A stretch of 64,000 nucleotides of DNA from Pseudanabaena sp. PCC 6802 (GCF_000332175.1 NZ_KB235914.1:2352868-2416867), one strand, 5' to 3'. Shown: positions 13,852 to 17,774, numbered from the stretch's first letter. Made by a program: numbers and translations. Notes: generated by a model not told the origin, from the sequence alone.

Positions 13852-13983
13852 TTAAACGCTACCAAATCGCAGCGATCGCATAATTTTATGGCTTTCTACT
13901 CGTTCGTGCAATTCTCCGCAGCCTCTAGTAATTTCTTACCCATTTCAATTGAGATGTACAAATCCACTATTGGCTAAAATCAT
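13852..13983 (-). pseudogene. Decayed PIN-domain toxin (VapC-like) remnant
   Basis: Directly after the antitoxin-like gene an ATG at 13983 opens MILANSGFVHLN and then stops; PIN toxins usually begin MILVDTGF. Further down, in a shifted frame, the minus strand reads ELHERVESHKIMRSLRFGSV with a stop at 13852. The start overlaps the end of the upstream gene, as in working antitoxin-toxin pairs. The middle of the domain is deleted, so the toxin is dead. The start match is good; the tail assignment is weaker. Confidence 0.5.
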
Positions 13984-14204
13984 CATCTGCCTTCTTGCCA
14001 AAGCAGTTCGTCAACTCGCTCTGATAGATCGGACATGCCGCTTTTTCCCATACCTATGCATTTGGGAAGTTCTTGCTTACTGAGCCAAAGATACTCGTCC
14101 ACGATTTCTTGAACGACTTCTGATAGGGTTTTGTCTTTGTGCTTGGCGATCGCTTGTAAAGCTAGTTCTGTTGCTTCTATCAAGTGAATTACAGTTGGTT
14201 TCAT
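13983..14204 (-). CDS. Antitoxin-like protein of a decayed toxin-antitoxin pair
   Basis: 73 residues. The N-terminal half (IHLIEATELALQAIAKHKDKTLSEVVQEIVDEYL) looks like a ribbon-helix-helix or similar DNA-binding segment; the C-terminal GMGKSGMSDLSERVDELLWQEG matches the tail of many VapB-type antitoxins (GMGRSG..DLSERVDELLW) that plugs a PIN toxin. The toxin reading frame directly downstream is decayed, so this would be an orphan antitoxin. There is no signal peptide. Confidence 0.7.
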   Translation of the reverse strand: MKPTVIHLIEATELALQAIAKHKDKTLSEVVQEIVDEYLWLSKQELPKCIGMGKSGMSDLSERVDELLWQEGR

Positions 14205-14299
14205 ATCTGGAGATGCTATTGATAATTGATATAGGTTGAGGACTGCATTTTTAGCCTTCTGCTTCCAAAAGTCATTTATTATAGATCCGCCTCGAATTA

Positions 14300-14333
14300 T
14301 ACGTTAAAAATAACGTATAATAAAAATAACGTA
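14300..14333 (+). promoter_or_regulatory. Operator-like repeats overlapping a TATAAT box upstream of the ATPase pair
   Basis: TACGTTA (14300) and TAACGTA (14311) form a 7-bp dyad with a 4-nt gap. The 12-mer AAAAATAACGTA occurs at 14306 and again at 14322. A perfect -10 box TATAAT (14316-14321) lies between the two copies, 29 bp before the ATG at 14351. No good -35 box is seen, so transcription may depend on an activator or be blocked by a repressor bound here. Confidence 0.6.
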
Positions 14334-14350
14334 CGTTGAGGATAGCATAA

Positions 14351-15499
14351 ATGAAAGCTAATCCAGGCGGTCAAGTTGCGCCAAACGAAGTTGTGGGACG
14401 GGATACTTTGATTGCCAGCCTCTGGGATATTTTGGAGCGACAAAGCGCGATCTTGAGTGCAGAACGGCGCATGGGTAAAACCAGCATCATCAAAAAAATG
14501 GAGGCAGAGCCTCCAGAAAACAAATTGCCAATCTTCCGAGATCTCGAACATGTTGGCTCGCCCTTAGAGTTTGTGGAAGCAGTACTGCAGGATGTAGAAG
14601 AGTATTTGAGCAAGAAGCAAAAGGTAGCAAACCGAACTCGCCAACTACTGCAAGATTTGCGTGGTTTGGAGGTCAAGGGCTTTAAGCTACCTCAAGAGAT
14701 TGCGTCAGATTGGAAAAAAATCCTTAAGGCAGTCATTGATGACCTGGTTACCAACCAGGAACGCCAGGTAATTTTGCTGTGGGATGAAGTGCCGTATATG
14801 CTGGACAAAATCGGCAATGTGGCAGCAATAGAGGTGTTGGATACACTACGATCGCTCCGCCAAACCTATCCAGATGTGAGGATGGTGTTTACAGGTTCGA
14901 TTGGGTTGCATCATGTCGTGAACGAGCTAAAACAAAAGGGCTATGCCAACGAACCAACTAACGACATGTATCCTGTTGATGTTCCACCCCTATCCGAAGA
15001 GGATGCAACTGCACTAGCTAGCGAACTACTGGAAGGAGAAAAGATTCCTACGGCAAATCTTCAGGAGGTAGCAGCAGCGATCGCTCGATCTGTAAGCTGC
15101 ATTCCCTTTTACATCCACCATCTGATTGCTAGATTAAAAATGAGAAACGATACAGTTGAACCTACAACAGTACTTGAAGTGGTAGGCGATTGCCTGCTCG
15201 ACCCGCTCAATCCCTGGAAAATGGAACATTATCGCGATCGCATCACGAACTACTATGACAGCGATCGACAAGCTTATGCGCTCAACCTGCTGGATATTTT
15301 GTCAAATGCTGAGCGAGCTTTATCGTTTGACGATCTGTTTGCCAGCCTTAGACTCGAACCGCAAACGCAGGACAGAGAAATAGCGAAGGATGTCTTAAGG
15401 CTTTTAGGCAAGGATTACTATATCGTTCGGCAGAAAGATCTGAAATATAGTTTTCGCTATCCACTCATTCAGCGGTATTGGCAATTTTTGAGAGGTTAG
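14351..15499 (+). CDS. P-loop ATPase, first gene of an ATPase pair
   Basis: 382 residues, an archaeal-ATPase-like/STAND-type P-loop protein. Residues 11-19 read PNEVVGRDT, Walker A is SAERRMGKTS (36-45), Walker B VILLWDE (140-146), and FTGSIG (about 180-185) looks like a sensor-1 segment. A lid-like helical region follows, and the C-terminal 90 residues resemble a winged helix (NAERALSFDDLFASL...DVLRLLGKDYYIVRQKDLKYSFRYPLIQRYW). No signal peptide or membrane span. The next gene starts 4 bp after the stop, so they form an operon. Function is not known; ATP-dependent sensing of a nucleic acid or protein is a reasonable guess. Confidence 0.8.
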   Translation: MKANPGGQVAPNEVVGRDTLIASLWDILERQSAILSAERRMGKTSIIKKMEAEPPENKLPIFRDLEHVGSPLEFVEAVLQDVEEYLSKKQKVANRTRQLLQDLRGLEVKGFKLPQEIASDWKKILKAVIDDLVTNQERQVILLWDEVPYMLDKIGNVAAIEVLDTLRSLRQTYPDVRMVFTGSIGLHHVVNELKQKGYANEPTNDMYPVDVPPLSEEDATALASELLEGEKIPTANLQEVAAAIARSVSCIPFYIHHLIARLKMRNDTVEPTTVLEVVGDCLLDPLNPWKMEHYRDRITNYYDSDRQAYALNLLDILSNAERALSFDDLFASLRLEPQTQDREIAKDVLRLLGKDYYIVRQKDLKYSFRYPLIQRYWQFLRG

Positions 15500-15503
15500 G
15501 CTG

Positions 15504-17774
15504 ATGAAAAACACATTCCTCTCAAGATTTACGCCCAGCATGATGTCGCCAGAAGCTCTGGAGGCGATCTTCGTGCAAAGACATCAGTTAGTAGAAGAAC
15601 TAATCGATGCAATTCGGACTAGCGCGCTGACTGCAAATAAGCATTTTCGGCTCTTAGTGGGTGGGCGAGGTATGGGTAAAACGCATACAATTGCCCTGAT
15701 TTACCACCGCATCGCAGCGATGGCAGACTTGAGAGACAAATTACTAATCGCATGGCTGAGAGAGGAAGAATGGGGTGTTTCGTCTTTTTTGGATTTACTA
15801 TTGCGGATATTTCGCGCCCTCGAACAAGCTTATCCAGATGAGTATAAATCTAAGCTAAAGCAGAAAGTTGAGGAGCTTTATCAGTTTCCAGAACAGGCAC
15901 AATATAGGGCAGAAAAGTTATTGCGCGAATTTGCAGGCGATCGCGTTTTGCTACTGTTAATGGAAAATTTAGACGATATTTTTGCAGGTTTAGGGGATAT
16001 CGGCCAAAAGCAACTGAGAGCTTATATCCAGAATAATTCGTTTATCACTATTTTAGCAACGACGCAGAGTTTATTTCATGGCGTTACGCACAAAGATTCC
16101 CCTTTCTATGGGTTTTTCTATCCCCACCACTTAGAGGAGCTTAGTTTGGAAGATGCCGTCACTTTATTACAACACATCGCTAAGTTAGAGGAGGATAAAG
16201 AATTAGAATCATTCATCCAAAGTAGGGCAGGACATAATCGCATTAAAACCATCCATTATCTTGCAGGAGGAAATCACCGCGTCTATGTCATCTTTGCCGA
16301 ATTCCTGACGCGAAAATCGCTAGATGAGTTGGTGGAACCATTCATGAAAACTTTGGACGAACTGACTCCCTATTATCAAGCTCGAATGGCGTGGTTATCG
16401 CAACAGCAGAGGAAAATCGTTGAGTTTCTATGCGATCGCCGCCATCCCGTCCCCGTCAAAGAAATAGCACTGCGTTGCTTTATCAGCCACCAAACCGCAT
16501 CGAGCCAACTAAAGGATTTACGCGACAAGGGATATGTCAGAGCTGAAACAATTGGTCGCGAATCTTTTTACGAACTGCGAGAAGTTTTAATGCGCTTTTG
16601 CCTTGAAGTCAAGAAGCAACGCGGAGAGCCAATATCTTTATTCGTAGATTTTTTGCGCAGTTGGTATACGCAGGATGAGCTGCAACAGAGATTGGAAAGA
16701 TTGAGCATGAAAAATGCCGAACGTCAGTTGGAGTGCGATTATATCAAGATGGCACTTCAAGAAAGGGAAGAGAAAAAAGAAGATCCTCGCATAGCAGCTT
16801 ACAAGCGAGAATATCAAAATTGCTACGATAAAGAAAATTATGAAATGGCGCTGCAAAATGCTGAAAAACTGATAGGACTTCGAGGCGATCTTGAGGACTG
16901 GCTGTGTAAAGGAGCTAGTTTGGCGTTTCTCCATCAATGGAAGGAGACCTTAGCGTTTTGTTCGCAAGCGATCGAACTTTACCCAAATGAGCAGCTTTTT
17001 TGGACAATCCAAGCATGGTCATTGGATAAACTGCAATACTATGATGAGGCTTTGTCCTCTTGGGATAAAGCAATCGAACTTACCCCAGCCGATTCACGGT
17101 TATGGATGTTTCGGGGCCATGAACTGAGTAACATGCAACGCTATGAAGAAGCTTTGTCATCATACGATTGTGCGATTGAAATCAACCTTAATTATAGTTG
17201 GGCTTATTCGTCACGGGGCTTTTTGCTAAGAAAATTACAACGTTATGAGGAAGCTTTAGCTGCTTTTAATAAATCCATAGAACTAGGATGTATCGAATCT
17301 CTAGTTTTCCTTGAATGCGCTATTGTATTGTTAGAATTAAATCGCTGGGATGAGGGAATCCAAGCGTTAAATCTTCTAAGTGATGAAGATATAAAAATAA
17401 TGGATATATACCTCATTATTCAAAAGCTATTTGATAGTAAGCATGATGCGTCATTTTGGCAAAATCGGATTCAAACACTCATCGAACTGTACGACAACCA
17501 CCAGATTACCTCAGCATTAGGCCAAGGGATCGTCCATAATATTCCCACATTGATGTCAGAGATGGTCAGCGATAAAACTGCTCGGACATGGTTGGAAGTA
17601 TGGCAAGAATTAACGGGCGATCGCCCCGAATTTCAAATTCCTTTGCGCCTGCTCAATGCGGCTGTGCGCTACCGAGAGACAAAGGGCGATCGCCGCGTTT
17701 TGTTAGAGCTTCCCATTGAGGAACGTAACTTGCTAGAACCTTTGCTGAAACAAGCGGAGTCGAAGCCAACCTGA
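15504..17774 (+). CDS. P-loop ATPase with winged helix and TPR repeats, second gene of the pair
   Basis: 756 residues. Walker A LLVGGRGMGKTHT (51-63), Walker B VLLLLMENLDD (148-158), then FITILATTQS as a sensor-like strand. Around 310-370 a MarR-like winged helix reads VKEIALRCFISHQTASSQLKDLRDKGYVRAE. A Glu/Lys-rich helix follows, then about four or five TPR units between 440 and 630 (for example YDEALSSWDKAIELTP, YEEALSSYDCAIEIN, YEEALAAFNKSIELG). The C-terminal 120 residues are unassigned. The order NTPase, DNA-binding, TPR recalls STAND regulators and defence ATPases. Translationally close to the first ATPase. Confidence 0.8.
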   Translation: MKNTFLSRFTPSMMSPEALEAIFVQRHQLVEELIDAIRTSALTANKHFRLLVGGRGMGKTHTIALIYHRIAAMADLRDKLLIAWLREEEWGVSSFLDLLLRIFRALEQAYPDEYKSKLKQKVEELYQFPEQAQYRAEKLLREFAGDRVLLLLMENLDDIFAGLGDIGQKQLRAYIQNNSFITILATTQSLFHGVTHKDSPFYGFFYPHHLEELSLEDAVTLLQHIAKLEEDKELESFIQSRAGHNRIKTIHYLAGGNHRVYVIFAEFLTRKSLDELVEPFMKTLDELTPYYQARMAWLSQQQRKIVEFLCDRRHPVPVKEIALRCFISHQTASSQLKDLRDKGYVRAETIGRESFYELREVLMRFCLEVKKQRGEPISLFVDFLRSWYTQDELQQRLERLSMKNAERQLECDYIKMALQEREEKKEDPRIAAYKREYQNCYDKENYEMALQNAEKLIGLRGDLEDWLCKGASLAFLHQWKETLAFCSQAIELYPNEQLFWTIQAWSLDKLQYYDEALSSWDKAIELTPADSRLWMFRGHELSNMQRYEEALSSYDCAIEINLNYSWAYSSRGFLLRKLQRYEEALAAFNKSIELGCIESLVFLECAIVLLELNRWDEGIQALNLLSDEDIKIMDIYLIIQKLFDSKHDASFWQNRIQTLIELYDNHQITSALGQGIVHNIPTLMSEMVSDKTARTWLEVWQELTGDRPEFQIPLRLLNAAVRYRETKGDRRVLLELPIEERNLLEPLLKQAESKPT

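Follow-up and report, generated by a model that had tools for sequence, protein, structure and literature searches.

Conserved adjacent ATPases of predicted STAND type lie behind a 16-bp-period operator lattice of their own

Introduction

Why should two ATPase genes sit almost end to end behind a palindrome that covers their own promoter? The locus raising this question lies in a 64,000-nucleotide stretch of Pseudanabaena sp. PCC 6802 DNA (NZ_KB235914.1:2352868-2416867; the window hereafter). A first-pass annotation of the window had noticed two adjacent P-loop ATPases of 382 and 756 residues, separated by 4 bp and preceded by an operator-like promoter, and had proposed a sensing or defence system. 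Plant NLRs, the apoptosome, and several bacterial immune systems are built on STAND ATPases (signal transduction ATPases with numerous domains), most often in the form of a single sensor protein to which an effector is attached. Here, we find that the two genes, named A and B below, are a conserved two-gene unit carrying an unusual, well-defined operator lattice. ORF (open reading frame) calling placed both on the + strand with the 4-bp gap described earlier, and each is single-copy in its own genome (G000).

14351-15499, + strand: ATPase A, 382 aa, predicted STAND/ORC (origin recognition complex)-like P-loop ATPase with a C-terminal winged helix (aa ~304-382) and without a repeat domain
15504-17774, + strand: ATPase B, 756 aa, predicted STAND NOD (nucleotide-binding oligomerization domain; ATPase aa ~20-290, winged helix aa ~296-371) followed by a TPR (tetratricopeptide repeat)/helical-repeat sensor at aa ~430-753

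Results

A and B are inherited as a pair

Scanning 84,980 species genomes with a relatively narrow alignment-derived pattern, we obtained 80 A loci from Cyanobacteria, Planctomycetes, Myxococcota, Acidobacteria, Proteobacteria, Bacteroidetes, Verrucomicrobia, Gemmatimonadetes, SAR324, and others. B lies immediately downstream on the same strand at 74 of them. Six loci lack B; five of these are cut by a contig edge, and the one in Nakamurella (L100) is the only true exception. The intergenic gap is between -34 and +8 bp in 53 of 73 A-B pairs, a clustering that points to translational coupling. Distances in the A and B trees correlate at r=0.96, against a maximum of 0.22 in 1000 permutations. 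The co-occurrence of both ATPases, on which the first-pass annotation had staked its proposal, is thus borne out.

Closer to the window, a single one of 57 related genomes (G047) has either gene; it has the two side by side, in unchanged order, with 22% and 26% identity. Counting matches at E<1e-20 as strong among 386 cyanobacterial genomes, we found a strong A in 8, a strong B in 10, and both in 7, where they are adjacent in every case. One genome (G121) has A without B, fused to an N-terminal Cro/C1-type helix-turn-helix (L056 3749-5167). In three others (G149, G178, and G380), B stands by itself close to the rsmB-like gene next to which sister genomes have the whole A-B pair, so A has probably been lost there. 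The distribution is sporadic and partly plasmid-borne, and the module is probably autonomous and horizontally moving.

A 16-bp lattice covers the promoter

A dyad overlapping a perfect TATAAT had been described upstream of A. Its 11-nt arms are perfect, and the hexamer falls inside the right arm. Among 20 shuffled sequences, the best arm reached 8 nt, as against 11 here. Reading the sequence further, we find that the dyad is the visible part of a conserved lattice with a 16-bp period, which the first-pass annotation had missed.

14296-14321: dyad, perfect 11-bp arms (14296-14306 and 14311-14321) with a 4-nt loop; the right arm includes TATAAT at 14316-14321
14295-14338: operator lattice, three 12-bp palindromic units with a 16-bp period, read from the sequence
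14295-14306: lattice unit 1, AATTATACGTTA
14311-14322: lattice unit 2, TAACGTATAATA
14327-14338: lattice unit 3, TAACGTACGTTG
14300-14306, 14311-14317, 14327-14333, and 14332-14338: half-sites TACGTTA, TAACGTA, TAACGTA, and TACGTTG, respectively

On the + strand, no good -35 hexamer stands 16-18 bp from the TATAAT, and a promoter scan gave no + strand match there. This lack of a fitting -35 hexamer points to a promoter that is weak or needs an activator, or else to a scan unsuited to it.

The homologous promoters fall into clade 1, comprising the window and loci L060-L107, and a divergent clade 2. In clade 1, TRACGTA half-sites and their complements are arranged across the promoter as 12-bp palindromes, TRACGTACGTYA, repeated at 16-bp intervals, and most promoters carry three to four such units. 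At least two half-sites occur in 21 of 45 clade 1 promoters; among 13,322 other windows from these loci, only 1 has as many. Sites with one mismatch keep to the lattice phase in 55 cases and leave it in 9, where chance would put 1 in 16 on phase. A generic test for exact palindromes was only moderately significant in clade 1 (12 of 44 at p<=0.05) since the units are imperfect, and we used the motif and autocorrelation tests instead. Performing a motif-free autocorrelation of the bases in the 100 bp before A, we observed a peak at lag 16 in both clades (z 19.6 in clade 1 and z 8.6 in clade 2). The clade 2 lattice is built of wholly different bases, such as TAACTATAAAATTATAGTTA in Moraxella and TTGCAATAAAAAAAATGCAA in Runella. 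As the lag-16 peak appears in both clades despite their unlike sequences, the period is kept while the recognised bases change between lineages. The operator-like promoter noted earlier therefore belongs to a lattice that its homologues conserve.

We also checked how often the operator recurs within a genome. In G000, the array is the sole perfect match, and near-matches are no commoner than those of a reversed-pattern control. Fourteen other genomes have 13 perfect matches in all, 12 of them at the operon's own promoter and one stray (positions compared by hand). An operator that is nearly unique in each genome strongly implies dedicated autoregulation, probably through B, and not a regulon; a global regulator was rejected on the same ground.

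Both ATPases have predicted STAND folds

Pfam assigns A to AAA_22 (2.4e-6). Its Walker A motif is AERRMGKTS, with G42 and K43 in 69 of 69 homologues, and its Walker B motif is WDE, with D145/E146 equally invariant (69/69). R17, conserved in at least 90%, and P252, in 64 of 69, correspond to the STAND arginine (hhGRExE-type) and GxP-type motifs as assigned by eye. We built AlphaFold2 models of A and B from alignments of the homologous loci. The model of A (predicted local distance difference test score, pLDDT, 94.3) matches the archaeal proteins PABY2304 (Z 26.9) and SSO1545 (Z 25.2), followed by ORC2 (1w5t; Z 21.8, 328 aligned, root-mean-square deviation 4.9) and then by the cores of plant NLRs, CED-4, and APAF-1. 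Against the NODs of NRC4, RPP1, CED-4, and APAF-1, the Z values are 18-21. By its model, A has a STAND/ORC-type NOD fold; lacking C-terminal repeats, it is an atypical STAND member when taken alone.

B shows a weak AAA_16 match. Its Walker A motif, GGRGMGKTH, has G58 and K59 in 63 of 63 homologues. R26 is invariant, and the GGxPR motif has G256 in 61 of 63 and R259 in 63 of 63 (STAND motifs assigned by eye). The Walker B position reads [E/D]N, with N155 in 63 of 63; the distant B proteins of Segatella (L009) and Mycobacterium (L011) lack this asparagine. The invariant DE of all 69 A sequences as against the [E/D]N of all 63 B sequences suggests that A may carry out most of the hydrolysis, and that B may be a regulated or binding subunit whose hydrolysis is weak or regulated.

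The best Foldseek match of the B model (pLDDT 88.7) is the TPR-STAND protein PH0952 (6mfv, E 3e-9), and ORC1 (2v1u, E 2e-7), Avs3, other ORC subunits, APAF-1, and CED-4 are matched as well; global TM-scores are low because the repeats differ. We relied on Foldseek for the B NOD fold, as the VIA-align matches of full-length B were filled by TPR proteins. Its C-terminal TPRs are superstructure-forming repeats as in STAND proteins, and B is modelled as a STAND ATPase with a TPR array. The STAND-like architecture suspected earlier accordingly extends to both models, B being nearest to PH0952 and A having a related fold.

16389-16616, + strand: B winged helix (MarR_2/TrmB-like), candidate operator reader from Pfam and clade 1 residue conservation
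16788-17339, + strand: B TPR core (aa 429-612), presumed sensor domain

The first-pass annotation had also given B a MarR-like winged helix and TPRs, and Pfam recovers both (MarR_2 at aa 306-348, 7e-7; TPR_1, 1e-18). The domain is present, but it cannot be taken simply for a transcription-factor domain, because it occupies the structural STAND winged-helix position; the operator evidence nonetheless suggests that B reads DNA as well. The repeats evolve quickly: the B core is 64-72% identical to the nearest relatives and the repeat region 39-48% (longer alignments). What follows the core ranges from nothing to nearly 900 residues among homologues, and one Microcoleus-type B carries ~28 copies of a 102-bp TPR unit. 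The TPR array thus looks like a fast-evolving sensor.

Which protein may read the operator?

In clade 1, the recognition helix and wing of B are conserved (T331, S333, Q335, G351, and R352), whereas the C-terminal winged helix of A is without comparable conservation. The plasmid loci L007 and L008 (Agrobacterium and Sphingobium), which have B only, show similar dyads upstream by eye. For these reasons, B appears the likelier operator reader, although the actual binder may be the complex of A and B.

Neighbours, plasmid copies, and searches for known systems

In the window, the pair is flanked by genes that we take, from ORF translations read by eye, to be pckA (upstream, on the opposite strand) and argJ (downstream). 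The decayed toxin-antitoxin pair reported to adjoin the operon lies between pckA and A and is outside the module. Its antitoxin frame is intact and its PIN toxin stops after 13 codons; in G014 and G037, an intact PIN toxin comes after the related antitoxin (L165 1501-2123 and L168 1492-2114). The proposed island is not borne out: the flanks are pckA and argJ, and the majority of homologous loci also lie among ordinary chromosomal genes.

13983-14204, - strand: orphan VapB-like antitoxin, 73 aa
13945-13986, - strand: PIN toxin remnant, 13 codons and then a stop, with an ATGA overlap with the antitoxin; read from the sequence

Plasmid copies of the pair adjoin Qat, DUF262, Pycsar/AbiE, or type I restriction genes. 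On the Moraxella osloensis plasmid pNP7-2 (L005 10172-15695), QatC/QatD-like genes stand upstream of the pair; downstream are a dUTPase, an unknown gene, an ORC-CDC6-like ATPase (PF24389, 1e-136), another unknown gene, and an N6-DNA methylase, which together look like a separate five-gene system. On pSKB0120-2 of the same species (L013 7122-14229), two very large genes come after the pair in a defence-like cluster; they encode a 1248-aa nuclease plus STAND-like protein (by eye) and an NPHP3_N/NACHT protein. On its plasmid p4 (L010 5948-7984), an IS5-family transposase splits A and leaves B intact. Conversely, a Methylomonas plasmid (L012 5968-7402) has an intact A, a B broken ~65 codons past its start, operator-like dyads, and an adjoining type I restriction HsdR-like gene.

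Some genomes hold several copies. SAR324 PL25a_bin.125 has two A-B systems, one per operator clade (L078 and L127), and Thiohalocapsa ML1 (L091) has more than one A. In G073 (L055 8463-14075), the A of a distant pair has an extended N-terminus, and a 299-aa gene stands directly before the pair (1-8 bp overlaps); its start resembles effector-associated adaptor domains by eye, without a Pfam match.

Searching PADLOC, NCBIfam, PHROGs, and PDB sequences, we obtained only weak or generic matches and rejected membership of a known defence family. The best PADLOC match of A is PDC-S27 (0.005); its 69 homologues match only mad8, PDC-S01, and PDC-S27, at best 1e-5. The B matches are to Csa3/CARF and cover mainly the winged-helix region. 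No description of the A-B pair was found in the open-access literature.

Known relatives differ in definite ways. B has the nucleotide-binding domain, winged helix, and TPR order of PH0952/MalT-type TPR-STANDs (PMC6468293), but it is encoded with a second ATPase and has its operator only at its own promoter, and neither Pfam nor the model gave a DNA-binding domain after the TPRs. MalT-type activators have such a separate effector domain and targets beyond their own promoter; for A-B, no such domain was found and the operator is essentially unique to the operon's promoter. A shares its overall fold over nearly its full length with the archaeal ATPase_2-type proteins SSO1545 (2fna) and PABY2304 (2qen), but it is a bacterial protein with 14-16% identity to them, nearly always comes with B, and follows an operator lattice. 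ORC1/Cdc6 and ORC2 likewise combine AAA+ and winged-helix domains and offer a structural precedent in the heterodimer that they form on origin DNA (2qby, 1w5t); the A-B lattice, however, is in a promoter, no origin or replication context was seen, and B has a TPR sensor. Like the Avs/bNACHT defence STANDs, B has a STAND core and a C-terminal repeat sensor; in contrast to them, A-B has two ATPases, its own operator lattice, and no N-terminal nuclease, protease, or other effector. The vWA-MoxR-VMAP/iSTAND and EAD (effector-associated domain) conflict systems, common in multicellular prokaryotes, are also multi-component NTPase systems with STAND parts and repeats (PMC7159879). Unlike them, the window pair has no adjoining vWA, MoxR, VMAP, EAD, caspase, or trypsin partner, nor are vWA, MoxR, VMAP, or EAD components among the common neighbour domains.

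Discussion

Whatever its trigger, we consider it probable that A-B is an autoregulated two-STAND sensing module. The computation itself gives the conserved pair, the folds, the motif asymmetry, the dedicated lattice, and the fast-evolving repeats; we infer the operator binder, the sign of regulation, the trigger, and the output. In PH0952 and MalT, a TPR array restrains the nucleotide-binding core until a cue binds (PMC6468293). B would be a sensor held inactive by its TPR array in the same way, and A, whose Walker B (DE) is intact, would be its partner ATPase. In the resting state, B would occupy the 16-bp lattice through its winged helix, either by itself or together with A, giving autorepression and low expression. 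A trigger bound by the TPR sensor would cause ATP-dependent assembly of A and B, operator release, and a response; the likeliest trigger would be an intracellular intruder or an infection cue.

The likeliest biological role is an anti-phage or anti-mobile-element system, where B TPRs would recognise a phage or plasmid product and an NLR-like A-B co-assembly would arrest either the cell or the invader with no classical effector enzyme. By analogy with known immune STANDs, we hold this to be a serious possibility that falls just short of probable. It fits the NLR/Avs-like folds, the sporadic cross-phylum distribution, the plasmid copies near defence genes, the fast-evolving sensor repeats, and a presumed tight autorepression of the kind typical of costly modules. 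More specifically, and more doubtfully, A-B may be an effector-less two-ATPase immune module: an ORC/NLR-like heteromer would use the lattice both for autorepression and as an assembly-nucleation site, a cue at the hypervariable TPRs would shift it to a working state, and the period would be conserved while the recognition bases are lineage-specific.

Several findings weigh against the sensing and defence picture. Three Microcoleus-type B-only loci keep B without the lattice, which A or an A-B complex as binder fits equally well as B alone, and the B winged helix could be purely structural. No effector domain was found in A or B, and no conserved third gene or effector among 148 neighbours, where the top Pfam families are Uma2 (6/148) and glutaminase (5/148). 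Most chromosomal loci are outside defence islands, and the PADLOC matches of the neighbours, counted on their own, are compatible with an enrichment in defence genes as well as with none. PADLOC-DB 2.0 gave no convincing system model for A and B. Neither the proteins nor the operator pattern have relatives in 50,697 phage records (tblastn) or viral contigs, and a viral origin was rejected on this account.

It is unlikely, in our view, that A-B is a stress- or metabolite-responsive transcription regulator of host genes like MalT or IniR. The B winged helix between ATPase and TPRs and the operator at the promoter would suit such a role, and among TPR-STANDs, MalT and its relative IniR (PMC5760070) are transcription activators. 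However, both in G000 and in almost every other genome with exact matches, the operator is essentially restricted to the operon's own promoter, there is no conserved neighbouring target gene, and B lacks the C-terminal LuxR/SARP-type domain of MalT, IniR, and AfsR.

The ORC1/ORC2/Cdc6 and TnsC fold matches, along with a regular single-locus palindromic array that recalls iterons or origin boxes, could also speak for a DNA-maintenance or replication module, i.e. an ORC/Cdc6-like heteromer on iteron-like repeats, perhaps a replicon or partition relic. We find this improbable: the array lies over the promoter, no more than ~70 bp from the start codon, the loci are mostly chromosomal with no replication genes recognised among the neighbours and no partition genes alongside, and the TPR sensor is left unexplained. 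A chance juxtaposition of unrelated ATPases behind a fortuitous palindrome, which the low identity of remote homologues (about 22-26%) might suggest, is refuted with near certainty by the near-universal adjacency, the tree congruence, and the conserved lattice.

In summary, A-B belongs among the STAND-type NTPase systems as a compact and widespread two-STAND unit, and its sequence-defined operator makes regulation, partner dependence, and trigger directly testable. If the defence reading is true, it would be a new type of system that lies outside defence islands and escapes neighbourhood-based searches. If it is false, A-B would still be a widespread, uncharacterised, autoregulated signalling switch.

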